DNA of 64,000 nucleotides, from the NCBI RefSeq assembly GCF_001029105.3, contig NZ_CP011807.3, forward strand, positions 1,426,001-1,490,000. Direction: 5' to 3'. Both the position numbers and the translations under genes were made by a program. Under the pieces are notes generated by a model. That model ran no database searches. It had not been told where the DNA came from and was given only the letters and a program-made list of their open reading frames with translations. Position 1 is the stretch's first letter. Each line of letters opens with the position of its first letter. Source of the stretch: Pandoraea faecigallinarum (lineage in GTDB: Bacteria > Pseudomonadota > Gammaproteobacteria > Burkholderiales > Burkholderiaceae). Shown in pieces: positions 7,317 through 52,005 of this stretch.

Positions 7317-7341
7317 AGCGTCGTGTCGATTCAGAAAAATG

Positions 7342-7363: not shown

Positions 7364-7437
7364 AACTTTTTTTATTTTAATCGTGGCGCGAAGATACCAC
7401 CTCGACAGGTTCTCGACCGATTGATGAGGGTTTCGAC

Positions 7438-33209: not shown

Positions 33210-33220
33210 CAAGGAAGTGC

Positions 33221-33916
33221 ATGAGCCCGCCCATCATCGTCGTGACCGGTATGCCGTTCGAGGCGCGTATTGCCAAGGGCGACGGCGTGCACGTCGTCTG
33301 TGCGCAGAATCACACACTTGCCGATGCACTGGAGGCGGCGATTGCCCGTGAAGGCGCACGCGGTCTCGTGAGTTTCGGCACGGCAGGCGGCCTGATTCCC
33401 GGCGTGAAACCGGGCCAGTGGGTCGTTGCGCACACGGTGCTCGACATGCCGCAGCAGGCGCGTGAGTGCGCAACGTCGCTCGCGTGGGCGGATGCACTGC
33501 GCCGCGCGATGCCGGGGGCGCTGCTTGCCGATGTGGCGGGAGTGAGCGCCCCCGTGGTGAGCGCCGGTGACAAGGCGGCGTTGTTCCGCGAGAGCGGGGC
33601 GGCGGCGGCGGATATGGAGTCGCATATCGTCGCTCGCGTGGCGCAGGCACATGGTTTGCCGTTCGTGGTCGCGCGCGTGGTGATCGACCCGGCGGAGCGC
33701 TCGCTCCCGCCGGCGGCGCTCGCCGGCATGCGCAGCGATGGCTCGACCGACATTCTCGGTGTACTGCGCTCGCTCGCGGGCAATCCGCTTCAGTTGCCTG
33801 CGTTGCTGCGCGTGGGACAAGACGCCGGCCGCGCACGGCAAGCGATGAAGCATGGCCGTCGAATCGTTTCGCTCGAACTCGGCGATGGGTTCGGGGCGAG
33901 GGCCGTGGGAATCTGA
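33221..33916 (+). CDS. hpnG: Hopanoid-associated phosphorylase HpnG
   Basis: A 231-residue protein of the nucleoside phosphorylase fold. HpnG removes adenine from adenosylhopane on the way to ribosylhopane and the bacteriohopanetetrol series. Family features include SFGTAGGLIPGVKPGQWVVA near residue 47 and AAAADMESHIVARVAQ near residue 127. The ATG at 33221 has AAGGAAG 4-10 bp before it; the longer frame from 33059 lies inside shc and is rejected. It ends the rightward operon and converges on hpnB with a 45-bp gap that shows no clear terminator. Confidence 0.88.
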   Translation: MSPPIIVVTGMPFEARIAKGDGVHVVCAQNHTLADALEAAIAREGARGLVSFGTAGGLIPGVKPGQWVVAHTVLDMPQQARECATSLAWADALRRAMPGALLADVAGVSAPVVSAGDKAALFRESGAAAADMESHIVARVAQAHGLPFVVARVVIDPAERSLPPAALAGMRSDGSTDILGVLRSLAGNPLQLPALLRVGQDAGRARQAMKHGRRIVSLELGDGFGARAVGI

Positions 33917-33961: not shown

Positions 33962-35164
33962 TCAAACGTCCGGCGACTGTTGCCCGCGCGCCTGCGCACG
34001 ACCTTTCCACATGCCGCCGCGACCGCGCCAGTGTTGCAGCGCCGAGTCGAACGTGAAGACGGTGTAGAGCGCGGCGACGAGCGGCAGCATCGGGCCGAAA
34101 CTCGACGGCTGATGATAGAAGCGCAGCATCGGCAGATACGAAATCGTCATGGCGATCCACGCGAACAGGCCCAGCCACTGGCCGATGCCTGACCCGAAGA
34201 TCGTCATGACCGGCGGCACGATGAACGTGAGCAGCAACGAGACGATCGTGCTCGTGAGCAACACCGGTGAGTACTGCAACTGCGCGTACGCCGTGCGCGA
34301 CACCATCTTGCGGATCTCGCCGAGGTTGTCGTACGGACGCATGCTGACCGCACGCTCCGTCAGTCCCAGCCAGATCGGCCCTTGCTTCTTGAGCATGCGT
34401 CCCATCGCGCAATCGTCGATGATTTCATCGCGAATCGCTTCGATGCCGCCACCCGCTTCGAGCGACGCCCGATGAATCAGCATGCACCCGCCGGCGGCGG
34501 CGGCCATCTTCTTCTTCGGATCGTTGACCCATGAGAAGGGGTAGAGCATCTGGAAGAACAGCACGAAGGCCGGGATCAGCGTGCGCTCGAACCACGCCGT
34601 GCAGCGCAGTTTCGCCATGAGCGAGACGAGCACGCGGTTTTCGCCCGTTGCCCGCGTGACCAGGCGGCGCACGTTCTCGGGCGAATGCGCGATGTCCGCA
34701 TCGGTGTGCAGAAGGTATTCGGGCGCGACACCGTCGTCGTTCGTCGACGGATCGCTGGCGAACGCCACCCCCTGGCGCACCGCCCACATCTTGCCGGTCC
34801 AGCCACGAGGCAGTGGTTGGCCGCTCAGCACGTCGACGCGGCGCGTCAGGCCATCAGCGGCGGCGCGCGCCGCAGCGTCGCGCGCGAGGTCGGCCGTGCC
34901 GTCGCTGCTCTGATCGTCCACGACGACGATACGCAGGCGTCCCGGGTAGTCCTGACGGCAGAGCGACTCCACGACCTGACCGATCGATTCGGCTTCGTTA
35001 CGTGCAGGGATGACAACGGCCACAGGCGGCCAGAGCGCCGGTGCGGGCAGACGGTCTTCGTCCAGATCGTCGCGCTCGCGTGCGCGCCAGAAGCCGCCTT
35101 GCGAGCTGAGCAGATAGATCCAGATGGCCAGCGACAGGCCGGCGATCCAGGCCAAAACAGTCAT
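33962..35164 (-). CDS. hpnB: Hopanoid-associated glycosyltransferase HpnB
   Basis: A 400-residue family 2 glycosyltransferase with an N-terminal membrane segment and about three C-terminal ones. The nucleotide-sugar fold shows VVIPARNEAESIGQVVESL, the DDQSSDG segment and the acidic metal site HTDADIAHSP. HpnB is conserved in hopanoid clusters, but its acceptor is not firmly known. The ATG at 35164 overlaps the end of hpnA by 4 bp (ATGA), showing coupling. A longer open frame to 36373 is a chance extension antisense-free but out of frame within hpnA, and is not used. Confidence 0.88.
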   Translation of the reverse strand: MTVLAWIAGLSLAIWIYLLSSQGGFWRARERDDLDEDRLPAPALWPPVAVVIPARNEAESIGQVVESLCRQDYPGRLRIVVVDDQSSDGTADLARDAAARAAADGLTRRVDVLSGQPLPRGWTGKMWAVRQGVAFASDPSTNDDGVAPEYLLHTDADIAHSPENVRRLVTRATGENRVLVSLMAKLRCTAWFERTLIPAFVLFFQMLYPFSWVNDPKKKMAAAAGGCMLIHRASLEAGGGIEAIRDEIIDDCAMGRMLKKQGPIWLGLTERAVSMRPYDNLGEIRKMVSRTAYAQLQYSPVLLTSTIVSLLLTFIVPPVMTIFGSGIGQWLGLFAWIAMTISYLPMLRFYHQPSSFGPMLPLVAALYTVFTFDSALQHWRGRGGMWKGRAQARGQQSPDV

Positions 35165-36156
35165 GAGAGGTATCCGGCAGAACCAAACCAGGTGAGCGCG
35201 TCGCGCAGACCCTCGGGATAGGCGCGGGCGGCGTAACCCAGCTCGCGCTTTGCCTTCTCCGAGGAGAAGAACATGTGATAACGCGACATCTTCAGGCCAT
35301 CGACCGTCACGAACGGCTCTTTGCCTGTGAAGCGCGCCACGCCTTGCGCCGCCATCGCGAGCGGATAGAGGGGCCAGCGCGGCAACGCCACTTTCGGTGC
35401 CTTGCGCCCGACCATGCCGGCGATGCTCGCGAGCATGTCGCGCAGCAGGACATCGTCGCCGCCGAGAATGTAGCGCTCGCCTACACGGCCGCGCTCCAGC
35501 GCCAGCAAGTGGCCTTCGGCGCAATCGTCGACGTGCACGAGATTCAGGCCCGTATCGACGAACGCGGGAATCTTGCCTTGCGCCGCCTCGACGATGATGC
35601 GCCCGGTCGGCGTCGGCTTGATGTCGCGCGGCCCGATGGGCGTGGACGGGTTGACGATGACCGCGGGCAGACCGTCGTTGGCGATCATGCGCTCGACCAG
35701 ACGCTCGGCCGCGACCTTGCTGCGCTTGTACACGCCGATGGTCGTGGCTTCTTCGTTCGGGGAGGTTTCGTCCACGGGGCCGGTGGCGTCGTGCACCCGC
35801 AGCGTGGCAACGCTGCTCGTGTACACCACACGCTCCACGCCTGCCCGCAGCGCGGCTTCCATTACCGTGCGCGTGCCGTCGATATTGGCCCGCATGATGT
35901 CGTTGGGATCTTTTGCCCAGAGGCGATAGTCGGCGGCGACATGGAGCAGGGCGTCCATGCCGGTGAGCGCGCGCCGCATCGAGTCGGCGTCGCGCATGTC
36001 GCCTTCCACGACCTCGACAGGCAGGTCGGCGAGGTTCGCGCGGGGGCTGGTGCCACGCACCAGCAGGCGAACCTCGTGACCGCGCGCGAGCGCCGTACGT
36101 GCTACCGCAGAACCGACGAACCCGGAGGCGCCGGTGACCAGCACTCGCGACGGCAT
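35161..36156 (-). CDS. hpnA: Hopanoid-associated sugar epimerase HpnA
   Basis: A 331-residue extended short-chain dehydrogenase/epimerase. The NAD motif VLVTGASGFVGSAVARTAL is at residues 5-23, and the catalytic YKRSK (Y and K three apart) is near residue 142. The match to HpnA is along the whole length, including the C-terminal FFSSEKAKRELGYAARAYPEGL. HpnA is thought to act on the sugar part of hopanoid side chains. Its start follows the hpnH stop directly, and its stop overlaps hpnB, so hpnH-hpnA-hpnB form one message with ispH upstream. Confidence 0.88.
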   Translation of the reverse strand: MPSRVLVTGASGFVGSAVARTALARGHEVRLLVRGTSPRANLADLPVEVVEGDMRDADSMRRALTGMDALLHVAADYRLWAKDPNDIMRANIDGTRTVMEAALRAGVERVVYTSSVATLRVHDATGPVDETSPNEEATTIGVYKRSKVAAERLVERMIANDGLPAVIVNPSTPIGPRDIKPTPTGRIIVEAAQGKIPAFVDTGLNLVHVDDCAEGHLLALERGRVGERYILGGDDVLLRDMLASIAGMVGRKAPKVALPRWPLYPLAMAAQGVARFTGKEPFVTVDGLKMSRYHMFFSSEKAKRELGYAARAYPEGLRDALTWFGSAGYLS

Positions 36157-37278
36157 TTACGCCTTGGCCCGGCGCAGTTCGTCGAGCTTGATCTCGACGT
36201 GCTTGGAGAATACGAACTCGGCAGGACGCTGCTTGGCGAACGAGATGTCGTCGGCCATTTTGCCTTCGGTCCGAACGCCCTTGATCGCCACACCCAGTGC
36301 ACGCAGCGGATGCGAGATCGTCTCGTTCACGGCCGTGGCTTCGAAGCCACTGTGCACCATGCAGTCGGCGCACTTCTCATAGTTGCCCACACCGTACTTG
36401 TCCCAGTCGGTGGTGTTCATCAGCTCCGTATACGTCTTGGCATAGCCTTCGCCGAGCAGGTAGCACGGACGCTGCCAGCCGAACACGGTACGCGTCGGGT
36501 TGCCCCATGGCGTGCAGTGGTAAGAACGGTTGCCGGCGAGGAAGTCAAGGAACAGGCTCGACTGGCTGAACGTCCATTTCTTGCCGCCATTGCCGCGCTT
36601 GAGAATGTCGCGGAACAGTTGCTTGGTCTTCGAACGGTTCAGGAAGTGCTGCTGGTCCGGCGCGCGCTCGTAGGCATAGCCCGGCGAGACGGTAATGCCG
36701 TCGAGGCCCAGATCCTTCGTCGAATCGAAGAACCTGGCGACCTTTTCCGGATCGGCGTTGTTGAACAGCGTGCAGTTGATGTTCACACGGAAGCCGCGCG
36801 ACTTCGCCAGCTTGATGGCGGCCACGGCGCGGTCGTACACACCTTCCTGCGACACGGCGGCGTCGTGCATTTCACGGTCGCCGTCGAGGTGGATCGACCA
36901 GACGAAGAACGGGCTCGGCTCGTAGTCGTCGATCTTCTTCTCGAGCAGCAGCGCGTTCGTGCACAGATAGACGAACTTCTTGCGCGCGATAATGCCCTTG
37001 ACGATCTGCGGCATTTCCTTGTGCAGCAGCGGCTCGCCCCCGGCGATCGAGACCACCGGCGCGCCGCATTCGTCCACGGCGTCGAGCGACTCCTGGAGCG
37101 AGACGCGCTGGTTCAGGATCGGATCCGGATAGTCGATCTTGCCGCAGCCCGAGCAGGCGAGGTTGCAGCGAAAGAGCGGTTCGAGCATCAGCACCAGCGG
37201 GTAGCGCTTGACGCCCTTGAAGCGTTGCTTCATCAGATAGGCGCCAACATACGCCTGTTGCAGGAAGGGGATGGCCAA
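36157..37278 (-). CDS. hpnH: Adenosyl-hopene transferase HpnH (radical SAM)
   Basis: A 373-residue radical SAM enzyme that joins the 5'-deoxyadenosyl radical to hopene, giving adenosylhopane, the first side-chain step. The cluster Cys are C38, C42 and C45 (CNLACSGC). A C-terminal Cys pair is in KCADCMVHSGFEA. The start is a TTG at 37278: the protein then begins AIPFLQQAYVGAYLMKQ after the initiator Met, as in other HpnH proteins, and AGGAG sits 7-11 bp upstream. The longer frame to 37509 runs back into ispH and is rejected. It lies 23 bp after ispH. Confidence 0.92.
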   Translation of the reverse strand: MAIPFLQQAYVGAYLMKQRFKGVKRYPLVLMLEPLFRCNLACSGCGKIDYPDPILNQRVSLQESLDAVDECGAPVVSIAGGEPLLHKEMPQIVKGIIARKKFVYLCTNALLLEKKIDDYEPSPFFVWSIHLDGDREMHDAAVSQEGVYDRAVAAIKLAKSRGFRVNINCTLFNNADPEKVARFFDSTKDLGLDGITVSPGYAYERAPDQQHFLNRSKTKQLFRDILKRGNGGKKWTFSQSSLFLDFLAGNRSYHCTPWGNPTRTVFGWQRPCYLLGEGYAKTYTELMNTTDWDKYGVGNYEKCADCMVHSGFEATAVNETISHPLRALGVAIKGVRTEGKMADDISFAKQRPAEFVFSKHVEIKLDELRRAKA

Positions 37279-37301
37279 GTTCGGCTCCTGTTCGTATAGC
37301 G

Positions 37302-38261
37302 TTAGCCGGCGACCGCGTGGCGTGCGGCGACCGGCTCGTCTTTGGTCAATTCCGACGGCAAGCGGAACTGGATGGTTTCCTCGATGCCGTCCATGAGAGT
37401 CACTTCGACCGTGTCGATGCGACGCAGCGCTTCGATCACGTCTTCGACCATGCGCTCGGGCGCGGACGCCCCTGCGGTGATGCCGATGCGGGCCATGCCG
37501 CGCACCCACTCCGGATTCACTTCGGAGCCGTCGGCCACGAGATAGCTCGGCAGGCCCATTTCGGAGCCGATTTCACGCAGGCGGTTCGAGTTCGAGCTGT
37601 TCGTCGCCCCGACGACGAGCAGAACGTCCACACGCTCGCACAGTTCGCGCACGGCGGTCTGGCGATTTTGCGTGGCGTAGCAGATGTCTTTGGTATTCGG
37701 GCCGACGATATTGGTAAAGCGACGTTGCAGCGCAGCAATGATACCCCGAGTCTCGTCGACCGACAGCGTGGTCTGCGTCACGTACGAGACCGGCGTATCG
37801 ATGGCGAGCGGCAAAGCCTCGACATCCGCTTCGGTTTGCACGAGATGCACGGGGCCGTCGATCTGCCCCATCGTCCCTTCGACTTCCGGATGGCCGGCGT
37901 GCCCGATCAGAATGACTTCGCGCCCGGCGGAGACATAATTCTTGCCTTGAATATGTACCTTGGTGACGAGCGGGCAGGTGGCATTGAGTACCTTGAGGCC
38001 GCGAATTTCCGCTTCCTGCTCGACGACGCGCGCGACACCGTGGGCGCTGAAAATGGTCACCGCGCCCGCCGGGGCCTCGGACAACTCGGCAATGAAGCGC
38101 GCGCCCTTGGCCTTGAGCGAATCGACCACATGCTTGTTATGGACGATTTCATGGCGAACGTAGACGGGAGCGCCGTATTTTTCCAGCGCACGCTCTACGA
38201 TCTCGATGGCACGTATGACACCCGCACAAAACCCGCGGGGTTGGGCAAGTAGGACTTGCAT
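37302..38261 (-). CDS. ispH: 4-hydroxy-3-methylbut-2-enyl diphosphate reductase (IspH/LytB)
   Basis: A 319-residue iron-sulfur enzyme for the last step of the MEP pathway, making isopentenyl and dimethylallyl diphosphate. Three cluster Cys are seen in [28 protein letters not shown] and [13 protein letters not shown], and [11 protein letters not shown] is the substrate loop. It is the first gene of a leftward run with hpnH, hpnA and hpnB. This ties isoprenoid supply to hopanoid synthesis. Many genomes hold a second ispH elsewhere, so this one may be the hopanoid-linked copy; that cannot be decided here. Confidence 0.92.
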
Positions 38262-38616: not shown

Positions 38617-39258
38617 TTATTTGCCGAAACGCTCGTTCTTCTCTTGCAGGTAGGCGATGAGGCTGTCGATGCCGCCCTGCGCGATGCGTGCCTTGAACTG
38701 GGGCTGATACAACTGGATGAGCCAGGCGTTGGCCACGTTCTCGCCCATCATGTTGATGTCGTAGATCTTCCAGCCCTTGTCCGTCTTGGCCAGGCGGTAG
38801 GCGACCGACAGGTTGTCGCCCGGGCCGCTGACCGTGGCGCCGACCACGACGTCGCTGCTGTTCGCCGTCAGCTTGGCCGGCTCGAACTTGAACTTGATGT
38901 CGTTGCCGCGCACCTGCGAGAGTTGCAGCGCGAATGTGTTGACGAGCAGTTGCTGGAATGCTTCGAAGACCTTCTTTTGCTGCTCGGGCGTTGCGGCGTC
39001 GAACACCTTCGGGCCGACGGCATAGCGCGTGGTGCGCAGGAAATCGGCATACGGCAGGAAATCGCGCGCGACGACGCGCGCCGTGGCGTTCACGTCGCCG
39101 GTTTTGGCAGCCGCATCGGCCTTCACGCCCTTGACGACCGTCTCGACGGCTGTCTTCACCATGTCGTTCGGATTGGCGCTGGCCTGAGCCCAGGCGGCCG
39201 ATGCGCCACCGATGCCGCTCAGGGCGACGGCGGCAACCGTCATCAGAAATTTGTTCAT
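38617..39258 (-). CDS. hpnM: Hopanoid-associated MlaC-family periplasmic protein HpnM
   Basis: A 213-residue periplasmic protein of the MlaC/Ttg2D (toluene tolerance) family. A signal peptide ends near AWAQA (residues 22-26). The fold shows RDFLPYADFLRTTRYAVG and WKIYDINMMGENVANAWL, as in MlaC, which shuttles lipids between membranes. Genes of this kind next to hpnN are called hpnM and are thought to help move hopanoids. The ATG at 39258 is used; the frame back to 39366 adds a nonhydrophobic leader. It is divergent from hpnN. Confidence 0.85.
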   Translation of the reverse strand: MNKFLMTVAAVALSGIGGASAAWAQASANPNDMVKTAVETVVKGVKADAAAKTGDVNATARVVARDFLPYADFLRTTRYAVGPKVFDAATPEQQKKVFEAFQQLLVNTFALQLSQVRGNDIKFKFEPAKLTANSSDVVVGATVSGPGDNLSVAYRLAKTDKGWKIYDINMMGENVANAWLIQLYQPQFKARIAQGGIDSLIAYLQEKNERFGK

Positions 39259-39580
39259 GCCAGATTGTCTTGATCGATTGAATTCGGAGCAGGCCGTAGT
39301 GTAGTCCACGTGATGCCCATGCGGCCCCTGTATACTGCTGCGATTTTGTAAATTCACTATTGCCATCGCTCTTGTCGCATTCCCTGGGCTGATCGACGGG
39401 CATCGGTCCCGATTGGTTCCTGATTGCAGCGAACGTTTAACCTTTCGTTACGTCTTTCGTTTTCGTCGCGCCTGGTATCGTTTGGTGTCGTCCGGTATCG
39501 TTTCGGCCCCGCCCGGCCGGGCGGCAGGAAAATGCGCCGGGCCCGACGGTGAGACTTCCACTTTCTTCCGGAACCGCTAC
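39259..39580. promoter_or_regulatory. Divergent promoter region hpnM/hpnN
   Basis: 322 bp between two divergent starts. A TGTATACT box (39327-39334) and nearby AT-rich sequence TTTTGTAAATTCACTA are promoter-like. The segment at 39470-39500 has repeated GGTRTCGT motifs. No gene was seen. Confidence 0.35.
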
Positions 39581-42229
39581 ATGCTGACTTCGCTCGTGGT
39601 GCGCATCGTCCGATTTTCGGCGAAGCACGCGTACCCGGTCATCTTCGCCTCGCTGCTGCTCGTGGTGGCCAGTTGCGTGTACGTTGCGAAGCACTTCGCG
39701 ATCAACACCGACATTTCCAGCCTGATCGACCTGAACACGCCGGCCGCCGAGCGCGGCCGCGAGATCGATCGCGCTTTCCCGCAGAAGACCGATCTGACGC
39801 TCGCTGTCGTGCAGGCGCCGGCCGCCGAATTCGCCGACAGGGCGGCCGCCGAACTGGCGAAGCGGCTGGAGACGGAGACGGACGTATTTCGTAGCGTGAG
39901 CCGTCCCGGCGCGGGCGATTTTTTCGCCCACAACGCCTTGCTCTTCGCCTCGACCGACGACGTCAGGTCGCTCACCGGCAAGCTTGAAGACGCCAGGCCG
40001 CTGCTCAACCGTCTGGCTCAGGATCCGAGCCTCGCCGGTCTGTCGAACCTGCTGTCGGTGACGCTGCAAACACCGCTTCTTACCGGTCAGGTAAAGCTCG
40101 CGGACATGACGCGTCTGCTGGAGAACGCGGCGCAGACTTCGGAAGCGGTTCTGGCGAACCGCCCGGCAGGCATGTCGTGGCGCGCGCTGGCCGCCCCGGA
40201 TACCGTGGCGCGCAGCTACGTGCAGGTGCAGCCGGTGCTCGATTATGCGGCGCTCGAAGCGGGCGCGAACGCGGCCACACGCATTCGCGATGCCGTCGCC
40301 GATCTGAAGCTTGCCGAGCGCTACGGTGCGACGGTGCGCCTCACGGGCCCGCGCCCCCTGTCGGACGAGGAATTCGCGTCGGTGCGTGAGGATGCCGGCC
40401 CGAATGCCGCCATCACGCTGCTTGCCGTGCTGGTGGTGCTGTGGCTGGCCGTGCGCTCCGGCAAGATGATTCTCGCGGTGTTCATCACGCTGCTTGCCGG
40501 GCTGGCAGTGACGTTTGCGCTGGGTCTGATGATGGTGGGGGCGCTCAACATGATTTCCGTGGCTTTTGCGGTGCTGTTCGTTGGCATCGGCGTGGACTTC
40601 GGCATTCAGTTCGGCGTGCGCTACCGCGAGGAGCGGCACCGTCTGGAGCACGGCGAGGCGACACCCGCGGACGACGTGCTGCGCGGCGCGCTGGCCGGCG
40701 CGGGCAAGGCGATTGCGATGCCGCTGTCGCTGGCCGCTGCGGCGACCGCCGCGAGCTTCTTCTCGTTCCTGCCGACCGACTATCGCGGCGTGTCGGAGCT
40801 GGGGCTGATCGCCGGTGTGGGCATTCTGTGCGTGGCGTTCCCGTCGGCGATCACGTTGCTGCCGGCGCTCATCAGTGTATTCAAGCCCAAGGGCGAAGCG
40901 AGTCCGCCGGGGTTTCGCAGCCTCGGGCCGGTCGACGAATTCACCGAGAAGCATCGCAAGCCGTTGCTTTACGGCACGCTGGCGTTGGTCGTTGCCGGGC
41001 TGCCGCTGCTCGCGCATCTGCATTTCGACTTCAATCCACTGCATTTGAAGGACCCGCACACGGAGTCGATGGCAACGCTCATCGATCTGTCGAATTCGCC
41101 TGAAGCGGGCGTGAACGACGTGCAGTGGCTTGCACCGGACCTCGCCGCGGCCGACGCCGAAGCCGCCAGGCTTCGCGCCGTCCCGGAGGTGGGCCGTGTC
41201 GTGACGCTCACGACCTTCCTTCCCTCCGACCAGCCGGCCAAGCTGGCGATGATCGCCACCTCGGCGAAATCGTTGCTGCCGGTGCTCACGCAAACGCCGC
41301 TCGCCCCGGTGCCCGATGCGACGCGCGTCTCCGCGCTCAAGACGGCGGCGGGCCAACTGGAAGACGCGGCCCTCGACTATCCGGGCGAAGGCGCGAAGCA
41401 GGCGCAACGTCTTGCCGCGGCGCTGCGTAAGCTTGCGGCGGCGGATTCCGCCACGCGCGATCGCGCCGAGCGCGCGTTTGCCGGCCCGCTGAAGCTGGTG
41501 CTCGGCCAATTGCGCGACGCACTGCAACCGCAGCGGGTGACGCGCGAGTCGCTGCCGAAGGACATTGCCTCCCAATGGGTGGCCGCCGACGGACGCGCGC
41601 TCGTGAACATTTCCCCGCGTGTGGCGAAGGGCGCGGATCCAAGCGACGACGTGATGCTGCGCAAGTTCACCGAGGCCGTATTGCGCACGACGCCGGACGC
41701 GGTCGGCGGTCCGATCTCCATCCTGCGCTCGGCCAACACCATCATCCGGGCATTCATCGAAGCCGGCGTGTGGGCGTTGCTGTCGATCACCGTGCTGCTG
41801 TGGCTCGCGTTGCGCAATTTCGGCGACGTGCTGCGAACGCTCGTGCCGCTGCTGGTCTCGGCGGCCGTGACGCTCGAAGTGACGGTGCTGATCGGCTTGC
41901 CGCTGAACTTCGCGAACATCATCGCGCTGCCGTTGCTGCTGGGCGTGGGCGTGGCGTTCAAGATCTACTACGTGATCGCCTGGCGTCACGGTCAATATCG
42001 TTTGCTGGCTTCCGGGCTGACGCAGGCGATCGTGCTGTCCGCGGCGACGACCGGGATTGCGTTCGGCAGTCTGTGGCTGTCGCATCATCCGGGCACATCG
42101 AGCATGGGCAAGCTGTTGGCCCTGTCGCTCGTCTGCACGCTGATCGGCGCGGTGTTCTTCCAGCAGGTACTCATGGGCAAGCCGAAGACGCACGAGGACG
42201 AGGGGGCGATGCCGCCAAAACAGCCCTGA
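39581..42229 (+). CDS. hpnN: Hopanoid transporter HpnN (RND/MMPL family)
   Basis: An 882-residue RND-superfamily inner-membrane transporter. One N-terminal helix (residues about 15-35) is followed by a periplasmic domain, five further helices (about 275-430), a second periplasmic domain and five to six C-terminal helices (about 735-870). The segment [19 protein letters not shown] is typical of the family. HpnN moves hopanoids from the inner to the outer membrane, as shown in Rhodopseudomonas, and resembles Burkholderia homologues. The ATG at 39581 is preferred over an open frame from 39413. It is divergent from hpnM and convergent with dxs. Confidence 0.9.
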
Positions 42230-42313: not shown

Positions 42314-44218
42314 TTACACGGACTCGACCTTGCCTCCCAGCCGCTCGGCCATTGCGCGGCGAATCGAGGCGGTGATACCCGATGCGTCGAGACCGACGGA
42401 CGCCAGTTGTTGCGCGGGTGTGCCCTGATCGATGTACGTGTCGGGCAATCCCAGTTGCAGCACCGGAATCGCAACCCCGTTCGCGTTGAGCGCTTCGATG
42501 CATGCCGTGCCCGCACCGCCCATCACGGCACCTTCTTCCAGCGTGACGATCAGGTCATGCGTACGCGCCATGTCGAGCACCGTCGCTTCGTCGAGCGGCT
42601 TCACGAACCGCATGTTGACCACACTGGCGTCGAATTCGTCGGCGATCTGCTCGGCCAGCGCCACCATCGAGCCGAACGCGAGCATCGCCACGCGGCGCCC
42701 GGCGGGGGCGGTGCTCTGGCGGCGCGTCTGCGCATGCCCCACGGGCAGCGTCGACAGACCGGCTTCGGTCGCCACGCCCGGACCCGTGCCGCGCGGATAG
42801 CGCACCGCACTGGGACCGTCGATGCCAAGCGCCGTTTGCAACATCAGACGGCATTCGTTCTCGTCGGCCGGCGCCATCACCACCATGTTCGGAATGCAGC
42901 GCAGGTAGGCCATGTCGTAGGCGCCCGCATGCGTCGCCCCGTCGGCGCCCACCAGACCGCCGCGGTCGATGGCCAAAAGCACCGGCAGATTCTGCAAGGC
43001 GACATCGTGAATCAGCTGATCGTAGCCGCGTTGCAGGAACGTCGAATAGATCGCGACGACAGGCCGCAGGCCTTCGGTTGCCAGGCCGCCCGCGAAAGTC
43101 ACCGCGTGTTGCTCGGCGATGCCGACGTCGTAATAGCGCTCCGGAAAACGCTTCTCGAACTCCACCAACCCGGAGCCCTCGCGCATCGCCGGCGTGATGC
43201 CGACGACACGCTTGTCCGCCGCTGCCGCATCGCACAGCCATTGCCCGAACACCTGCGTATAAGTCTTGGCCGAGACGGTGCCCGGTGCGGCCGGACGAAT
43301 GCCTTCGCTGGGATTGAATTTGCCCGGGCCGTGATACAGCACCGGATCGGCTTCGGCAAGCTTGTAGCCGCGGCCCTTGCGCGTGACGACGTGCAGGAAC
43401 TGCGGCCCCCTGAGCGCCTTGATGTTCTCCAGTGCGGGAATCAGGGCGTCGAGATCGTGCCCGTCGATGGGGCCGAGATAATTGAAGCCGAACTCCTCGA
43501 ACATCGTGCCCGTCGGCGAGACGATGGCCTTGGCGTGTTCTTCGAGCTTGTGGGCGAGTTCGCGCATCGGCGCCGGGGCGTTGCGCAGCAGATTGCGCAC
43601 GCTTTCCTTGCCCGCCGAGTAGAACTGGCCGGACATCAGCCGCGTGAGGTACTGGTTGAGCGCGCCCACCGGCGGTGAGATCGACATGTCGTTGTCGTTG
43701 AGCACGACGAGAAACGGCAGATCGTCATACACCCCGGCATTGTTCAGGGCTTCGAACGCTTCGCCCGCGGTCATCGCGCCATCGCCGATCACGGCAATCG
43801 CGTGACGCTTCTCACCCTTGACCTTGCTCGCCAGCGCCATGCCTAGTGCCGCCGAGATCGACGTGCTCGAATGCGCTGTGCCGAACGTGTCGTACGGCGA
43901 CTCGTCGCGCTTCGGAAACCCCGACAGGCCTTGCCACTGACGCAGCGTCGGCATGGCCTCACGCCGCCCCGTCAGGATCTTGTGCGGGTAGGTCTGGTGA
44001 CCCACGTCCCACACGATCCGGTCGTTGGGCGTATCGAAGACGTAGTGCAGGGCAATCGTCAGTTCGACGGTGCCCAGATTCGACGACAGATGCCCGCCCG
44101 TGCGCGAGACGTTCTCGAGCACGCAGGCGCGCAGCTCGTCGGCCACGCGTCGCAGTTCGGCGCGCGAGAGGGCGCGCAATTCGGCCGGGGATGGGATGCT
44201 GGCTAACAAATCGGTCAT
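42314..44218 (-). CDS. dxs: 1-deoxy-D-xylulose-5-phosphate synthase
   Basis: A 634-residue thiamine-diphosphate enzyme that joins pyruvate and glyceraldehyde 3-phosphate, the entry step of the MEP isoprenoid pathway. The early His is in GGHLSSNLG (42-50), and the thiamine motif [17 protein letters not shown] begins at residue 145. The transketolase pyrimidine domain has [17 protein letters not shown]. It starts 23 bp after the aminotransferase stop on the same strand, with no terminator between. It is thus the last gene of the phosphonate operon, linking isoprenoid supply to that message. In many Burkholderiales dxs instead follows ispA. Confidence 0.93.
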
Positions 44219-44241
44219 GGCTGAACGTCCGTCCCCGGGGC

Positions 44242-45315
44242 TTAGTTCACCAGTCTGGCGAAGGAAGCCAGCAGGCGATCGATGTCGGCCGCGCTGAGAT
44301 TGCCCATCGTCGAGATGCGGAACAGTTCCTTCGACAGGCCGCCCTGACCGGCATAAATCACAAAGCCGTCGGCCTTGAGCCAGTCGTGCAGACGCGGGTA
44401 GTCGACGCCCGCCGGCAGCTTGTACGCGCGCAACACGACCGAGGATTCCCCCGGCGGCAACACGCTGTCGATACCGAGCGCGGCCAGGCCGGCACGCGCC
44501 TGCTCGGCGAGCGCGCCGTAGTGGGCGTGGCGCTTTTGCCAACCGCCCGCATCCTCGAGCTCGCGCAGCGCTTCGACCAGTGCGTAGTACGCTTGCACGG
44601 ACGGCGTGAACGGTGTGTTGCGCTCGGCTTGCAGCTTTGCCAGGCGCGCAATGTCGAGGTAGTACGTACGGCTGTGGGCCTTGGCGAGCGCGTCCCTGCG
44701 CACCAGCACGAAAGACACGCCCGGCACGCCATGTACGCATTTGTTGGCCGTCGCGGCGACCGCGACGATGCCCGAGTCGTCGAAGTCGATGGCTTCGGCG
44801 GCAAAACTGCTCACACCGTCGACCAGCAGATCGATGCCGCGCTCGCGGCAAACGCGGGAAATGCCGCTCAGATCGTTCAAACGGCCCGTCGTCGTTTCGT
44901 GATGAATGATCGCCACGTTCGTGTACGGGCGATCCCCGGCGGCGTCGAGCTTCGCGACGATCTGCGCCAGATCCGGGGCCTGCATCCATTCGAAGTGAAT
45001 GACGTCGTGATCGACGCGATATTGCTTGGCGATCTGCGAAATACGCTCACCGTACACACCGTTCTCGACGATCAGCAGGCGGCCGTTTTCCGGCACGAGA
45101 CCCGCGGTCATGCTCTCGACGGCAGCCGTGCCCGAGCCGGTCATCAGCACCGGTGTCCACACAGCCGGATCGAGGCCGTAGACGGCCGTCAGGCGTGCGC
45201 GAGCTTCGTCCTGCAAGTCGAAAAACTCGGGTTCTCGGTGGCACAGATCGGGTTGCAGCAGACTTTTGCGAACACGCTCGGTCAGGGTAACGGGGCCCGG
45301 GTTCAGTAACAGCAT
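44242..45315 (-). CDS. 2-aminoethylphosphonate aminotransferase (PhnW-like, biosynthetic)
   Basis: A 357-residue class V aminotransferase. The PLP Lys is K192 (in [12 protein letters not shown]), and D166 in LLVDGVSSF should hold the pyridine nitrogen. The N-terminus [19 protein letters not shown] and the [10 protein letters not shown] segment match 2-aminoethylphosphonate:pyruvate transaminases. In a cluster with PEP mutase and phosphonopyruvate decarboxylase, the reaction runs toward synthesis: phosphonoacetaldehyde to 2-aminoethylphosphonate. It follows the decarboxylase gene by 45 bp. Confidence 0.9.
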
Positions 45316-45360
45316 GGCGAAGCTTCCTCGGCAGATGTCGTGCGAATAAGGGGGGGACGC

Positions 45361-46551
45361 TCAGGCCGATACCTGTGCGCGTCGTGCAATATGGTTTATC
45401 AGGCGCGACTTGACCGCTTCCGGTGTGACCTTCGGCCGCGGCAATCCGTCCGGCGTGCCCGGGCGCGTGCTCAGGCAGGCGAAGCGCGGGCCGTCGTTCA
45501 GGCTGGCGCTGCTGCCATCGAACAGTTGCTCGATGACCTCCAGCGTATCGCCTTCGAGCGCCAGCGCGTAACCGCTCGCGGCGGCGATGCCCGCGAAGGA
45601 CACCGTCGGCGATACCGTCGCCTGTGCGCCGGTCGAGTCGTGCGAGGCGTTGTCGAGCAAAAGATGCACGAGGTTCGACGGGCCGTAAGCGCCCAGCGTG
45701 GCAAAGGCGCCCATACGCATGAGCGCCGCACCGTCGCCATCGAGTGCCACCACACGAAGATCGGGACGTGCCAGGGCAAGACCCAGCGCGAGGGTTGTGA
45801 CGCAACCCATCGAGCCGACCATGTAGAGCTGGTTGGCGCGATCGTCGAGGGCGTACAGTTCACGGCCGCAGAAGCCGGTCGACGCCAGCACCACGGTGCT
45901 GTCCAGCGGTGTGTGGGCGATCACGCGGGAGAGGGCGTCGCGACGTGTCGGCATCTCCGACGGTGCCACGCCCTTCGTGACGGAGACGGGCGCGGGCTGC
46001 GCCGGTCGCGCCGGACGCTCGCCGGGCTGCAACGGGAACGGCGCCACGCTGCCCTTTTGCATCACGAGCGCGTAAGGGCGGCCGGTTTCGTCCATATGCC
46101 GTACGGCACGCGCGAGCGCCGGGCCGATGGCTTCGGGCGAGGTCGGGAACAACTCCCACGGCACTTCCATCAGGTCGAGCATGGCCGGCGTGATCGGACC
46201 CATGAGCGCGTGCTGCGGCTCATCGGTGATGCCCGGCTGGCCGCGCCATGTCACGATCAGCAATTGCGGCAGACGGAACGTCCAGGTCAGCGACGTGAGC
46301 GGGCTCACCGCGTTGCCAAGGCCCGAGTTCTGCATCATCGTGACGGCACGTGCGCCACGGCCTTCTCCGAGGGTCGCACCGGCCGCAATGGCAACCGCAT
46401 CGCCCTCGTTGGCCGCCGACAGGTAATGCAGCGTGGGGTCTTGCAGCACGTAGTTGATGAACGGCGTGAGAAACGAGCATGGCACGCCGGTGTACCACGT
46501 AAAGCCGTGCCGGCGCGCGGCCTCGACAAACTGTCCTGCCTCAATCACCAT
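45361..46551 (-). CDS. Phosphonopyruvate decarboxylase
   Basis: A 396-residue thiamine-diphosphate enzyme that removes CO2 from phosphonopyruvate to give phosphonoacetaldehyde, the irreversible step that pulls phosphonate synthesis forward. The conserved Glu is in [14 protein letters not shown] (about residue 49), and the cofactor motif is [20 protein letters not shown]. The N-terminal [18 protein letters not shown] is typical of the family. The ATG at 46551 overlaps the PEP mutase stop by 11 bp, showing coupling; a longer frame to 46590 is less likely. Confidence 0.9.
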
Positions 46552-48253
46552 GCGTCTCCGAAGCGGCGGCGGACAGCGGCGTCTGGCCATGAGCGAAGTC
46601 GGCCGCGCGGCGGAATTCGTCCATGTCGTTCACACCGCGCCAGTGACCGTGTACGTACTGCACTTCGATCCGGGCGCCGTCGGCGGCCAGTGCGTTGATG
46701 AGTTCCGGCATGCCGAGCCGGTCGAAGTCGGGGCGCGTTTGCAGCGCGGCGAAAACACGTTGCAATTGCGCACGGCCGGCGTCGCCGCGCACGCCCAGCA
46801 GACCGATCCAGCGGCCGTTCGGGGTACGCCCGGCATCCGGGGCTTCGCCGCTGATTTTCTCGAGCAGCACCTGCTGCCCGAACAGACCGCGGTCGTCGCC
46901 CGCCGAGCAATACGCGAAGTCGCGCACGCTGGCGTTGGCCGCATTGGCCGCATTGGCCGCGGCGGTGGAGTCGACCACGACGGTAAAGTCGGCGTCGCTC
47001 TCGACAAGATCGCGCACGATGTAGCTGCGGAACAGCAGGTCGCCATATGAGATGACGGTGTCTTGCGTGAAGGCGTTCGTCACGCAGGCGAGCGAGGCCA
47101 GTTCACCCGTTTCGGCGTGGCGTTCGTTGATCGCGAGCGTGATGCCGGCGGTGTCGATGGCGTCGGCGCGATAGCCGCCCACGACCGTGATGTCGTTCAC
47201 CCCCTGCTTTTTGAAGCCGTCGACCAGCCAGCGCAGCAGCGGCTTGCCGGCGACCGGCAGCATGACCTTCGGCCGGTCCGTCGTCACGCTCTCGAGGTTC
47301 TTGCCACGGCTCGCGGCCAGCACGATGGCCGAGCGCGGCGCGTTGGCGGCGGACAGATAGCGGTCTTCGGCCCGCGAGTATTCGTCGGCGTCCTGCAGGC
47401 GGAAGATCTCGTCGACCGTGGCCACGCGGTCTTCCACATTGATCAGCGTTTCGTTGCGATGGATCTCGGCCGCGACGGACTGCATGGCCGAAGTCGCCGC
47501 ACGCAGCAGATGGTTCGCCCAGATCACGAGGCTGATATTGGCTTCGCGAAACACGTCGGTCGGCGTGCTGTAGTACTTCGTCGGCACGATTCCCAGCGGG
47601 CAGCGGTTGCCCCACTCGCGCGCGAATTGCACGATTTCGTCGGCGCGCTTGAGCTTGCTGTGAATCAGGATGGCGTCCGCGCCTGCCTGGCGATAGGCCT
47701 CGGCACGGCGCAGGGCTTCTTCCATGCCCCAGCCGGCGATCAGCGCTTCGACACGGGCAACGATGGAGAAGTCGTCGTCGGCCTGCGAATCCTTGCCAGC
47801 CTTGATCTTGCCGCAGAACTCGTCGATATCGGCCAGCGGCTGGCGTTCGCCGCCAATGAAGCTGTTCGTCTTGGGGAAGACCTTGTCTTCGATGCACACG
47901 CCCGCAATGCCGCGTTGCTCCAACTTGCGCACCAGACGCCGCATGTTGTTGAAGTTGCCGTAGCCGGTGTCGCCGTCGAGCAGGATCGGCAGATCGCTGG
48001 CGTCGGCCATGAATTCGAGGTTGTCGACGACCTGTGTCCAACTGGCTTCGTTGTTGTCGCGAACACCGAACTGCGCCGAGATGGTCAGACCGGACGCCCA
48101 GATTCCCTTGAAGCCGGCTTCGCGCACGATGCGCGCGGAAATGCCGTTATGCGCTTCCATCAGGAATTCGAGCTGGTTGCTGCGCAGCATGGCGCGCAGC
48201 TGCGCCGCGCGCGTGGCGCCCGGCGGTAGGGAGATTGCGTCGGGAGCGTTCAT
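46541..48253 (-). CDS. pepM: Phosphoenolpyruvate mutase fused to a nucleotidyltransferase-like domain
   Basis: A 570-residue fusion. Residues 18-300 are PEP mutase of the isocitrate lyase superfamily, which rearranges PEP to phosphonopyruvate and forms the C-P bond. The hallmark [10 protein letters not shown] is at 122-131, and [10 protein letters not shown] is at 91-100. Residues 307-550 resemble a sugar-nucleotide transferase: [10 protein letters not shown] stands where LAAGxGxRL is expected, followed by [17 protein letters not shown]. The Gly and Arg of the nucleotide loop are replaced, so activity of this half is doubtful. A 9-bp repeat encodes the Asn/Ala-rich stretch near residue 440. 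It overlaps the next cytidylyltransferase-type gene by 4 bp. Confidence 0.88.
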
Positions 48254-49014
48254 TCGGACACCATCGTGAGCGGTTCAAGTTGCGGCAGCACCTCGTCGGC
48301 GGCGCGCTTCACATCTTCAGGGTAGTCGATTTCGATCCACGGGAAGCCCGTGACATCCGCCGTTTCGAATTGTGCACCACGCTCGAGCAGCAAGTCGCGC
48401 ACCGCCTCTTCGTGCGGCATCCTGGCGCGGCCGGATTCGACGTAATCACGCGTGATGTCGGCCAGACGCGCCGCCGTCGCTTCATTGAAACGGAAGAAGC
48501 CGACCGATTCGCCCACGGTGTCGTATTCCAGACCGACCATGACCTGCTTGCGCAGTTCGACAGGAACGCCGTCGCGCAGGCACAGCTTGACCGGCTCGTC
48601 GCCCACTTCGAAGTCGCGGTCGATGAGCAGACGGTTGGCCGTCTCGCCGGCAACCAGCGCGTTGAAAATGCGCTGGTCGTACAGCACGTCGGCATCCATG
48701 ACGAGGACATCGCCACCGGCGGTCATGGCCTCTGCCGTCACGTGCAGCGTCAGCACACTGCCCAGATTGAATTCCGGGTTGAGATAAATCCTGGGACGCG
48801 GCGTCCAGTTCAGGCGGTCGAGCTCCTGGCTCACCTGTTCGTGATGAAAACCGAGCGCGAGCACGACATCGGTGATACCGGCAGCGGCCAGCATGCGAAG
48901 GTGGCGCTCGAGCAGCGACATGCCGTCGAACTTCAGCAAGCACTTGGGCGACTGCTTGTCTTCGGGCTGGAGCAAACGCAGGCCCATGCCTGCTGCGAGA
49001 ATGATGGCCCGCAT
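48250..49014 (-). CDS. Nucleotidyltransferase, phosphonate cytidylyltransferase (PntC) type
   Basis: A 254-residue MobA/NTP-transferase-fold protein. The nucleotide loop is intact ([20 protein letters not shown] followed by KCLLKF), and metal-binding Asp are in [11 protein letters not shown] and [12 protein letters not shown]. It overlaps the PEP mutase gene by 4 bp. In phosphonate clusters, proteins of this kind (PntC) activate 2-aminoethylphosphonate with CTP to CMP-aminoethylphosphonate, ready for transfer to a lipid or glycan. A CDP-alcohol phosphatidyltransferase two genes upstream makes that reading likely here. The exact substrate is inferred. Confidence 0.8.
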
Positions 49015-49029
49015 GGTGGATTTCCTTCT

Positions 49030-50052
49030 TTAGAGCGGTGCAGTATCCGTGGCGGTCGGCAGCGACACGCTTTGTTGCGCGGCGCGTTGGCGGCGCCAGC
49101 CACGTTCGGAGAAATGCAGATACACGAGGCCGGGCACGCCGAGCAGCAGCTCGCGCGTACGCTTGGCTAGCGACAGGGCCAGCGCGGCGTCGGCCGGCAG
49201 ACCCACGAGCGGGGCGAGCAGCAGATAGCCGCCTTCCTGCACGCCGAGCGAGCCCGGTACGAAGAACGCCGCGCCGCGAATCGCCTGTCCGAGGCTCTCG
49301 AGCAGCAGGGCGTCGACCCAACTGACCGGATGCCCGATGAATTGCAGGATCAGCCAGACTTCGGCGGTACCGACGATCCAGCCCACCAGACTGAACAGGA
49401 AGCTCGCGAGCACCTGACGGCGGTGGCCGTACATGCGCTGCACGATTTCATCGACGGCATCCGCGCGATCGAGCAGCGAGGACCAGTCACGCTTGGACGA
49501 CATCTTCGAGAGCATGCGGAATGCCCAACCGAAAATGCCGCGGCGTTGCGCCACATAGAACGCATAGAGCAGGGCGGAGACGAGCGCTGTCGCGAGCAGC
49601 ATCGGCAGCCACAGGCTGTCGCCCGCGCTGTGCGACGCGCCGATGCCGAACACCGCCAGACCCAGCAGCGCAAAGACGATCTGCGCCACGGCTTGCAGCG
49701 TGGTGCTTACGGTGATGGCGGCGGCGGCCTCGCGACCGGCCATGCCGCGCTGCTTCATCTGGCGCACCATCGCGATCGGACCGCCGATCTGACCGGCCGG
49801 CAGCAGGCTGTTGACCGACTCGCCGACCCAGCGGGTCAGGGTGGCGCGCCCGAGCGTGCACGACTTCGATACCAGCACCTGAATGGCGGCCGCGTCGAGC
49901 ACCAGCGGTAAGAGGTGGAAGGCGGCGATGGGCAGCAGGCCCCAGCCGGCGACGGCCAGCGTGGACATCACCGATCCCGCGCCCTGCCAGATCAACAGGG
50001 CGACGAAAAGGGCGAAACCGAGAGTGAGTGAGACGATAGCGGTCCGGTTCAT
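49030..50052 (-). CDS. HpnL-like flippase-domain membrane protein
   Basis: A 340-residue inner-membrane protein with about eight hydrophobic segments, of the lysylphosphatidylglycerol-synthase transmembrane (UPF0104) family. Segments GESVNSLLPAGQIGGPIAMV and FFVPGSLGVQEGGYLLLAPL are the family signatures. Members include HpnL of hopanoid loci and lipid flippases such as the MprF membrane part. Here it lies between the cytidylyltransferase gene (15-bp gap) and the phosphatidyltransferase gene (abutting). It may flip the phosphonolipid or otherwise serve it, or serve hopanoids; sequence alone does not decide. Confidence 0.75.
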   Translation of the reverse strand: MNRTAIVSLTLGFALFVALLIWQGAGSVMSTLAVAGWGLLPIAAFHLLPLVLDAAAIQVLVSKSCTLGRATLTRWVGESVNSLLPAGQIGGPIAMVRQMKQRGMAGREAAAAITVSTTLQAVAQIVFALLGLAVFGIGASHSAGDSLWLPMLLATALVSALLYAFYVAQRRGIFGWAFRMLSKMSSKRDWSSLLDRADAVDEIVQRMYGHRRQVLASFLFSLVGWIVGTAEVWLILQFIGHPVSWVDALLLESLGQAIRGAAFFVPGSLGVQEGGYLLLAPLVGLPADAALALSLAKRTRELLLGVPGLVYLHFSERGWRRQRAAQQSVSLPTATDTAPL

Positions 50053-51615
50053 TTAGCGTTTCGTCCGTCCCAGAAACTGACGAAACACTTGCCGGAAACC
50101 GAAATAGGCGATGGCGTCCTTCATATTCGAGATGAAGCGCTGCCAGGTGCCCATGCGCGGGTCGGTCACGTACTCGAACGTGAGCGAGATTCGCTCCTCG
50201 TTGTCGCCGAGCGGCGTGATCCGGTGGTGCAGTTTGTCCCCGTCGAAGAACACCAGCGCACCCGGCGGATAGGCCACGGCGCCATCGATTTGCGGCACGC
50301 CCGGATTGCGCGTGTGCAGCCGGTATTCGAGCTTGCAGCTCGACTGGTCCACTACGCCGAGCAGCAGCGTGTAGCGGCGACCCTTGTAGTAGGAAGTGTC
50401 ATAGTGCCAGCCAATGTGATCGCCCGGACGCGTGTAGTAATACAGCGCATACGCATGCGGGTCGTCCTGTGGCGACGGCAGCAGCTTTTCCCCCGCCAGA
50501 CGCTCCAGAAAACGCATCAGGGCCGGCGAGCGGTACAACTCGGCCACGAACGGCGCAAGCTCGTCGAGCGTATGACGGCTGACGCTGCCACCCTGCTTGT
50601 GACCGGGCAGGTAATTGCGGTTCACGTTCGGGGTGACCGCCCGCGCCGCGGCGATCAGCTGCTCGGTGACCGATGCCGACAGGAACGTCTCCATATAGAT
50701 GAAGGCGTCCTGCGACTTGAATTCACGTGTGGCGCCGTCGATGTCCACTGTGCCGAGCGCGCGCTCGATCTCGGCGTCGGCGGCAAAGGCGGCCGGCGCC
50801 ACCGGTGCCACCGGTGCCACCGGCTCAGCGGCTTCGCCAGGCTGCGCTGGCGCAGCGGCGGCGGTGGCCGCCGCGTGTCCGGTCTCGAAGGCCGGGGCGG
50901 AGGGCGACGCAGTGGCTGGCAGCGGTCGACGCATCACGCGAACATAATCGGCGATCACGAGCAGCGCGAACAGCGGGGCGCCGATGGCCGCGGCAATCAG
51001 GAACCCGCGCGTGCCGTCGAACAGCGTGACGAGCGGCATCAGGTACAGCACGTCTTCCGTCTCGAAACCGCCGACCGAGGCCTGTTTCGTGCCCGACTTG
51101 CCCACGCGGTCCTCGATGCGCATGCGCAGGAAGAAGATCAGCGCCACGGCAAAGCCGGCGATCCAGCCCAGCGTGGACGCCGACAACGGCACCGGAAGCG
51201 GGTATTGGCCGGGCGCGGCGGCGGCCACACCCATGCCGATGCCGCCGAAGAGCAGCACGGTGACGAGGGCGTCGGAGGCCAGGTCGTACAAATGGCCGAT
51301 ACGGCTGGTCTTGCCGCTGATGCGGGCAAGCTCGCCGTCCGTATGATCGATGAAGTTCGAGAGCACGAGCAGGATGGCACCGAGGTTGGCCATCGCGTAG
51401 TTGCCCTGCGCGAATGCCCAGGTGCATGCGAGTCCAATAATCAGGCGGACCGTCGTGAGATGGTTTGGCGTGACCGGCGTATTGACGAGCGGCGTCACCA
51501 GCCAGCGCGCCAGACGAGCGTCGTATTGACGCGGGCGCGGTGGCACGGGGCGTGCGGTTTTGCTTGTGGCCGACGCAGCACCTGGCGCCGAAATAATTTT
51601 CGGTATCGTTTCCAT
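50053..51615 (-). CDS. CDP-alcohol phosphatidyltransferase fused to 2OG-Fe(II) oxygenase
   Basis: A 520-residue fusion. Residues 30-230 are a membrane-embedded CDP-alcohol phosphatidyltransferase: D90, D93-G94, A97-R98, G107, D111 and D115 give the full family motif. Residues 240-280 are an Ala/Pro-rich linker with a 9-bp DNA repeat. Residues 300-490 are a prolyl-hydroxylase-like 2-oxoglutarate/iron oxygenase with H404 and D406 (GWHYDTSYY), H463 or H464 (DKLHHRITPL) and the 2OG-binding R475. With the PntC-type gene nearby, the first half probably attaches CMP-activated aminoethylphosphonate to a lipid, and the second may hydroxylate it. It leads the phosphonate operon. An in-frame ATG at 51636 is equally possible; neither has a clear ribosome site. 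Confidence 0.85.
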   Translation of the reverse strand: METIPKIISAPGAASATSKTARPVPPRPRQYDARLARWLVTPLVNTPVTPNHLTTVRLIIGLACTWAFAQGNYAMANLGAILLVLSNFIDHTDGELARISGKTSRIGHLYDLASDALVTVLLFGGIGMGVAAAAPGQYPLPVPLSASTLGWIAGFAVALIFFLRMRIEDRVGKSGTKQASVGGFETEDVLYLMPLVTLFDGTRGFLIAAAIGAPLFALLVIADYVRVMRRPLPATASPSAPAFETGHAAATAAAAPAQPGEAAEPVAPVAPVAPAAFAADAEIERALGTVDIDGATREFKSQDAFIYMETFLSASVTEQLIAAARAVTPNVNRNYLPGHKQGGSVSRHTLDELAPFVAELYRSPALMRFLERLAGEKLLPSPQDDPHAYALYYYTRPGDHIGWHYDTSYYKGRRYTLLLGVVDQSSCKLEYRLHTRNPGVPQIDGAVAYPPGALVFFDGDKLHHRITPLGDNEERISLTFEYVTDPRMGTWQRFISNMKDAIAYFGFRQVFRQFLGRTKR

Positions 51616-51680: not shown

Positions 51681-52005
51681 GACAACCTTGGTAATTCAGG
51701 GCATTGACGCGCGAGAAACTTGCGCTGCGCTGCGAACTGACCGTACCGAAGTCCCCGCCATCTGCCTCTGTTAACAGGCTAGGTGATAGGCGTTCCGAGT
51801 TCGCGATTATATTCCGCAATAGTCTATTTCGCCCTGAAGGCGCCCGGCGTCGTTTCGACGCACGGCGCGCACCCGATGTGGCGGGATTTCGCGGGTTTTG
51901 CCCTAAAAAACGACTTTTGTTCGATATAGCGGCGTTTGGGGGATACGCGGATAATGGCGGTCCCGTTTGCCAATTTTGCGGTGTTGTCCGACCGCTCTTC
52001 TCCTC
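51681..52005. other. Divergent intergenic region between the phosphonate operon and the SDR gene
   Basis: The 325 bp has no gene. It is AT-richer around 51806-51830 and should carry promoters for both directions. No RNA motif was recognised. Confidence 0.35.

Follow-up and report, generated by a model that had tools for sequence, protein, structure and literature searches.

According to the relevant sections of the report on the Pnt pathway of Treponema denticola and Atopobium rimae (PMC6697681), 2-aminoethylphosphonate (AEP) is made by Ppm, Ppd and AEPT and activated with CTP, and many Ppm proteins are fused to a nucleotidyltransferase (NTP transferase). A 2018 paper, in the legend to its Fig. 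7, reads a gene cluster of a lichen Nostoc and a Burkholderia homologue as phosphonolipid synthesis (PMC5987646). In Roseomonas (Acetobacteraceae), a hopene cyclase gene is described as linked to phosphoenolpyruvate (PEP) mutase, and an undiscovered terpene-phosphonate was suggested in that passage (PMC8776678), whereas the hpnL passages of a 2025 survey of hopanoid clusters consider the function of this gene not established (PMC12583986). Here, we analysed a seven-gene phosphonate operon located at positions 42314–51615 of a 64,000-nucleotide stretch of Pandoraea faecigallinarum DNA (hereafter, the window), which belongs to a 5.73-Mb genome in three contigs (G000) whose nearest named relatives are Pandoraea (loci L001–L017 and L027). 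We propose, with a probability of roughly 45%, that this operon directs the synthesis of a zwitterionic head group containing a phosphonate, which is placed on a hopanoid-pathway membrane lipid, most likely a bacteriohopanepolyol.

The phosphonolipid pathway that a preliminary description of the window had proposed is not new, being already present in the legend of the 2018 Nostoc paper, where a CDP-alcohol phosphatidyltransferase, a 2-oxoglutarate (2OG)-Fe(II) oxidase, an NTP transferase, pepM, ppd, AEPT and hpnL are listed, and hydroxy-AEP appears among the abbreviations of the same paper (PMC5987646). The legend differs from the operon in that it names separately the two halves that are fused in the window and does not contain dxs, and a word count gave 0 occurrences of 'hopanoid' in the main text. 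The Roseomonas linkage concerns a different bacterial class, and the passages describing it give no transferase, oxygenase or HpnL; it was the only literature found that joins hopanoid genes with PEP mutase, some co-mentions having been judged by title. In the sections of PMC6697681 on T. denticola, PntC is fused to an aminotransferase, whereas its counterpart in the window operon stands alone. The clusters of the 2025 survey share HpnL, HpnN, HpnH and squalene-hopene cyclase (SHC) with the locus, but its passages on them leave phosphonate genes unmentioned, and 'phosphon' has 0 occurrences in its main text. As far as literature searches show, the pathway is known in outline, and the present analysis adds its ties to hopanoid genes across several lineages, the second dxs of the operon, the domain fusion and a variant without a PEP mutase match.

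The operon encodes a fusion of a CDP-alcohol phosphotransferase (PT) to an Fe/2OG oxygenase (OX), the putative flippase HpnL, a stand-alone NTP transferase (NTP), PEP mutase (PepM), phosphonopyruvate decarboxylase (Ppd), AEP aminotransferase (AEPT) and Dxs (Table 1). PepM, Ppd, AEPT, Dxs and HpnL all exceed curated cut-offs, and PepM carries the EDKxxxxxNS motif, as read from its sequence. The stand-alone NTP transferase aligns over its full length with PntC, and residues D107 and E202 are found in 95 of 95 aligned sequences; in T. denticola PntC, the acidic residues at the amine of AEP are E104 and E196, of which E196 aligns with E202, but E104 with D107, an aspartate as in LicC. The NTP-transferase domain fused to PepM resembles LicC and sugar enzymes. 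In this fused domain (46541–47350), SYGD stands where LicC has DADN, with serine at the first acidic PntC/LicC position. AEP synthesis, CTP activation and a CDP-alcohol phosphotransferase, as the preliminary description had predicted, are thus supported at the level of protein families.

The fusion protein matches the Pfam families CDP-OH_P_transf (residues 49–150; 43.2 bits, cut-off 22) and HalD (residues 305–407; 45.5 bits, cut-off 26), and it shares 81–90% identity in the best segment with the proteins of the Pandoraea loci. CDP-alcohol phosphatidyltransferases are defined by the motif D(x)2DG(x)2AR(x)nG(x)3D(x)3D, whose residues D90, D93, G94, A97, R98, G107, D111 and D115 are invariant in the 61 aligned PT sequences. 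The PT half belongs to this family and is predicted to move a CDP-bound head group onto the hydroxyl of a lipid; its weak PDB matches include choline/ethanolamine phosphotransferases.

The OX half has a BesD/HalD-type Fe/2OG fold. The preliminary description would have been refuted by an oxygenase half missing from close relatives or devoid of iron binding, but this half and its iron-binding site are intact and kept in relatives: in the H404-Y-D406...H464 arrangement, D406 and H464 occur in 227/227 sequences and H404 in 226/227, a set in which 95 locus sequences had been picked by a motif requiring H-x-D and the other 132 had not. In the halogenases BesD and HalD, HxG replaces HxD and thereby opens the site for chloride. 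A halogenase function of OX was rejected, since it carries the hydroxylase-type HxD...H ligands; in this it resembles the lysine hydroxylase 7jsd and differs from BesD, HalB and HalD, and it differs from all four in being joined to a membrane transferase in the operon.

The nearest folds of OX are enzymes acting on small zwitterions (free lysine or ornithine), and arginine, lysine and histidine account for many of its conserved positions. These features argue against the possibility, which we regard as unlikely, that OX hydroxylates the hopanoid side chain, giving it one more hydroxyl of the kind found in bacteriohopanepentol, and that the phosphonate goes elsewhere. Such a role would agree with the linkage of OX to hopanoid genes and with its retention in genomes that gave no PEP mutase match (see below), but the OX gene lies immediately downstream of PT in the 79 loci compared; in L156 and L157, 1 to 1.5 kb separate the two genes, and no PT was found in L158 and L159. 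The PT-OX fusion reported in the preliminary description is real in the window; it is not general, since only 19 of the 79 loci are fused and the others carry PT and OX as separate neighbouring genes, and fusion as a rule across loci was therefore rejected. When the fused protein was used as query in a protein database, with candidates limited to proteins of similar length, the 120 best listed of 231 matches all carried both Pfam domains in one chain. In L018–L024 and L032, the PT and OX open reading frames (ORFs) share the frame and are separated by a single stop codon, which shows a possible origin of the fusion.

Taken in order, PepM, Ppd and AEPT would produce AEP, which the PntC-like enzyme would convert with CTP to CMP-AEP. 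The membrane-bound PT half would then transfer AEP onto a lipid hydroxyl, and the OX half would hydroxylate AEP, probably on the carbon beside phosphorus, while it is bound to the nucleotide or to the lipid. HpnL, where present, would flip the product and HpnN would export hopanoids, with the extra dxs providing isoprenoid units.

The acceptor is suggested by the neighbourhood of the operon. A block containing SHC and hpn genes (29.5–42.2 kb) directly adjoins it in the window, and the dxs of the operon is a second copy, the other one (73% identical, L224) being located at G000:C1:3304212-3306128. Neither the adjacent hopanoid cluster nor the extra dxs figured in the preliminary description, and together they change the likely acceptor lipid. 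No HpnJ scored above its cut-off in the window genome (best 26 bits, cut-off 578), which would leave this genome without that known head-group route. Visual inspection alone further suggests a squalene-synthase-like ORF at 28943.

Linkage of the operon to SHC or hpn genes is not confined to a single lineage. In two loci of another gammaproteobacterial order (L032 and L163), the genes are arranged as SHC-HpnG-HpnN-(second PT)-HpnL(reversed)-PT-OX-NTP-PepM-Ppd-AEPT-dxs(reversed)-HpnH-HpnB. The second PT homologue lies between HpnN and HpnL at ~6310 in L032 and ~5107 in L163; the L032 copy shares 52% identity with the window protein, and the OX-adjacent PT 42%. Nostocaceae (the family of genome G009, by the names of the loci) carry OX in 7 of 99 genomes, giving nine loci with those collected earlier. 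Their arrangements include HpnJ-HpnK-HpnI-PT-OX-NTP-PepM-Ppd in Nostoc L031 and PT-OX-NTP-PepM-Ppd-AEPT-HpnJ-HpnK-HpnI in L160; PT-OX follows HpnJ-HpnK-HpnI in both L028 and L031, and L159 and L160 each contain a single run alternating OX and phosphonate genes with HpnI, HpnJ and HpnK. HpnI, HpnJ and HpnK of L028 exceed their cut-offs, and OX and HpnJ lie at most 6 kb apart in all three Nostocaceae genomes that have both. Between HpnJ and HpnK, Nostoc L028 also encodes a 286-aa protein (6751–7611), found in L159 as well, for which neither Pfam nor NCBIfam gave a match at the thresholds applied. In the family to which G006 belongs, which the names of similar proteins suggest to be Steroidobacteraceae, SHC lies ~5 kb or less from PT-OX in L190 and L196.

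The linkage was counted with a tblastn rule for core hpn genes (at least 28% identity over half of the query, E up to 1e-15), excluding L023 and L024 (same genomes as L197 and L198), L164 (from the genome of L029) and short loci with only one gene. A core hpn gene was present in 8 of 21 OX loci outside the Burkholderiaceae (four in Nostocaceae, two in the other order and two in the family of G006), compared with 0/15 PEP-mutase loci of OX-negative genomes and 0/20 arbitrary stretches. Fisher's test gave 1.4e-4 against both controls pooled and 0.007 against the 15 alone, values that serve as a guide only because related genomes are not independent. Separate PEP-mutase loci, with which the 4-kb contig of G901 was grouped, carried a core hpn gene in 0 of 16 cases (11 of them under 5 kb). 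A DUF4070 radical SAM protein beside PT-OX in Nostocaceae, which may be HpnP, was counted apart; its inclusion raises the count from 8/21 to 11/21. Co-occurrence points in the same direction: among 299 Burkholderiaceae genomes, OX was found in 178 and SHC in 214, with all 178 inside the 214, and SHC was present in 30 of 30 chosen OX genomes (drawn from the 79 loci and partly shared with the 299).

Several observations weigh against a hopanoid acceptor or against the pathway as proposed. Diacylglycerol and other alcohols are common acceptors of CDP-alcohol phosphotransferases. Of the 75 Burkholderiaceae loci, 18 contain a core hpn gene, and 15 of these 18 are from Pandoraea; none was seen in 57/75 Burkholderiaceae and 13/21 other loci, some of them short stretches, most Paraburkholderia loci are not close to hpn genes, and no hpn gene was seen in L156 and L158. 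Among the 85 Burkholderiaceae genomes without OX and SHC, 17 of the 20 listed are of 2.6 Mb or less, so the nesting of OX within SHC is partly confounded by small genomes. HpnJ as a gene that tracks OX in Nostocaceae was rejected, for it is not enriched (3/7 versus 47/92). No HpnL match was obtained in the nine Nostocaceae loci, and that of L032 (149 bits, 29% identity) is under the cut-off of 196; HpnL thus does not always accompany the module. In Pandoraea itself, L012 has no match to dxs in the interval that separates AEPT from HpnN. Finally, in 5 of the 11 OX genomes in the family of G006 and in one Paraburkholderia, the transfer module is present but PEP mutase gave no match.

The distance of most Paraburkholderia loci from hpn genes would be readily understood if AEP, and then hydroxy-AEP, were placed on diacylglycerol, and the resulting glycerophosphonolipid were used alongside hopanoids in ordered membranes, as sphingolipids are with sterols. 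Such a product would follow Kennedy-type logic, with CTP activation and a CDP-alcohol phosphotransferase that has choline/ethanolamine phosphotransferases among its weak PDB matches, and would agree with the phosphonolipid role assigned to the Nostoc cluster and its Burkholderia homologue in the Fig. 7 legend (PMC5987646). By itself, however, it leaves unexplained both the extra dxs of the operon and the interleaving with HpnI, HpnJ and HpnK. Since these same two features favour bacteriohopanepolyol, we consider a hopanoid the more likely acceptor, and diacylglycerol a possible, if somewhat doubtful, one.

The genomes without a PEP mutase match bear on the nature of the head group. PepM lies beside the module in 36 of the 79 loci (manual count), and most Paraburkholderia loci are without it there. 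Nevertheless, absence of PepM from the locus could not be equated with a genome devoid of C-P synthesis, and this equation was rejected: when the genomes of 46 of the 79 loci were searched, 43 had the PepM fusion somewhere (E below 1e-214), the exceptions being G006, G007 and G016. In a sample of 398 Pseudomonadota genomes, OX was found in 5 and a PEP-mutase match (E 1e-45) in 18; the five OX-positive genomes are all Burkholderiaceae and each has both. In the family of G006, OX occurs in 11 of 150 genomes, six of which have PEP mutase (72–79% identity), while the drafts G006, G007, G847, G903 and G939 gave no match at E 1e-45. The module of the latter (L190, L194, L195, L197 and L198) consists of PT-OX-HpnL-NTP, and a Rieske gene lies beside it in all five; this gene is absent from five other loci examined in the family, two of which are only ~10 kb. 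The Rieske copy in L023 resembles the sterol demethylase SdmA (150 bits, under the cut-off of 600). In Paraburkholderia monticola (G016, L039), PT-OX-HpnL-NTP is likewise present, and the best PEP-mutase match, at 30% identity and E 4e-30, is presumably a methylisocitrate lyase.

For the five drafts of the G006 family, the missing match means either that their sequences are incomplete or that the module accepts an ordinary amine phosphate. As the transfer module is retained in them and no PEP mutase was detected, the head group may vary. Taken further, the substrate of the module in some lineages would be phosphoethanolamine or a different phosphate bearing an amine, with the phosphonate genes as an optional upgrade of the head group. 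The Rieske gene in place of PEP mutase in 5 of 11 genomes speaks for this, as does the conservation of D107 and E202, which align with the amine side of PntC and are the same with and without PEP mutase. Nonetheless, we judge it improbable, given the true PepM fusion in 43 of 46 genomes and the uncertain completeness of the five.

Returning to AEP on a hopanoid, we tentatively suggest a new lipid class, hopanoid phosphonates, defined as AEP or hydroxy-AEP esters of bacteriohopanepolyols and produced by a single module that Burkholderiaceae share with Nostocaceae and with two further groups of Gammaproteobacteria, with HpnL as flippase in Proteobacteria and a phosphate head group in some lineages. 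Hydroxy-AEP lipids share the formula of the matching phosphoethanolamine lipids, and accurate mass alone therefore cannot separate them; being zwitterionic and isomeric with phosphoethanolamine lipids, hopanoid phosphonates may have been overlooked. The proposal supplies exact masses for a lipid search and explains how hydroxy-AEP and phosphoethanolamine lipids could be confused in mass-only lipidomics. The calculated [M+H]+ values are 654.4857 for AEP-bacteriohopanetetrol and 670.4806 for its hydroxylated form, compared with 702.5432 and 718.5381 for the corresponding lipids on diacylglycerol (34:1). If the proposal is correct, soil, plant-associated and symbiotic bacteria would carry C-P head groups on their hopanoids, lipids that modify membranes and serve as biomarkers in geology, and HpnL would gain a testable role as the flippase of a phosphonate lipid.

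As the preliminary description had it, the seven genes are tightly packed on the minus strand. Counted from the first possible starts, the intergenic distances are 0, 15, -4, -50, 45 and -4 bp, a spacing typical for a single transcript; the 11-bp overlap given earlier results if the decarboxylase ORF begins at a later Met, by eye apparently the better start. Gene order is conserved across the 18 Pandoraea loci as far as the stretches reach, with the exception of L012, and is not due to chance. A σ70 pattern search gave no match, and a promoter scan found 1 against 1.2 expected. A terminator-like hairpin follows dxs; the scan gave 10 such sites in the region versus 6.9 +/- 2.9 in shuffled sequences, which is weak alone.

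Table 1. Features of the phosphonate operon and the adjoining hopanoid genes (window coordinates)
Feature	Position	Strand	Evidence
PT-OX fusion, 520 aa	50053..51615	-	PT residues ~29-230; BesD/HalD-type OX residues ~276-511
HpnL, putative flippase-like membrane protein	49030..50052	-	TIGR03476 351.4 bits, cut-off 195.7; Pfam LPG_synthase_TM
PntC-like stand-alone cytidylyltransferase	48250..49014	-	6pd1 (PntC) E 5e-10, residues 2-246
PepM fused to second NTP-transferase domain	46541..48253	-	TIGR02320 404.6 bits, cut-off 319.6; 1m1b E 6e-128
Ppd	45361..46590 (true start probably 46551)	-	TIGR03297 434 bits, cut-off 313
AEPT	44242..45315	-	TIGR03301 373.8 bits, cut-off 360.8
Dxs, extra copy	42314..44245	-	TIGR00204 835 bits, cut-off 466
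Terminator-like hairpin, 11 pairs, 3' of dxs	42282-42257	-	Hairpin scan
HpnN hopanoid transporter, convergent neighbour	39413..42229	+	NF052374 1234.5 bits, cut-off 1100
HpnM/MlaC-like protein	38617..39366	-	Pfam MlaC; TIGR03481 60 bits, under cut-off 160
IspH (LytB)	37302..38261	-	Pfam LYTB
ORF with HpnH, adenosyl-hopene transferase, residues 78-396	36157..37509	-	TIGR03470 557 bits, cut-off 225
ORF with HpnB glycosyltransferase, residues 409-795	33962..36373	-	TIGR03469 526 bits, cut-off 379
HpnG phosphorylase	33059..33916	+	TIGR03468 203 bits, cut-off 187
SHC	31128..33209	+	TIGR01507 742 bits, cut-off 431
HpnE hydroxysqualene dehydroxylase	29569..31035	+	TIGR03467 408 bits, cut-off 283

Apart from a weak 29% match in L030, the only one elsewhere, a divergent gene for an oxidoreductase of the short-chain dehydrogenase/reductase (SDR) family (51967–52761, plus strand, in the window) adjoins the operon in the 18 Pandoraea loci.

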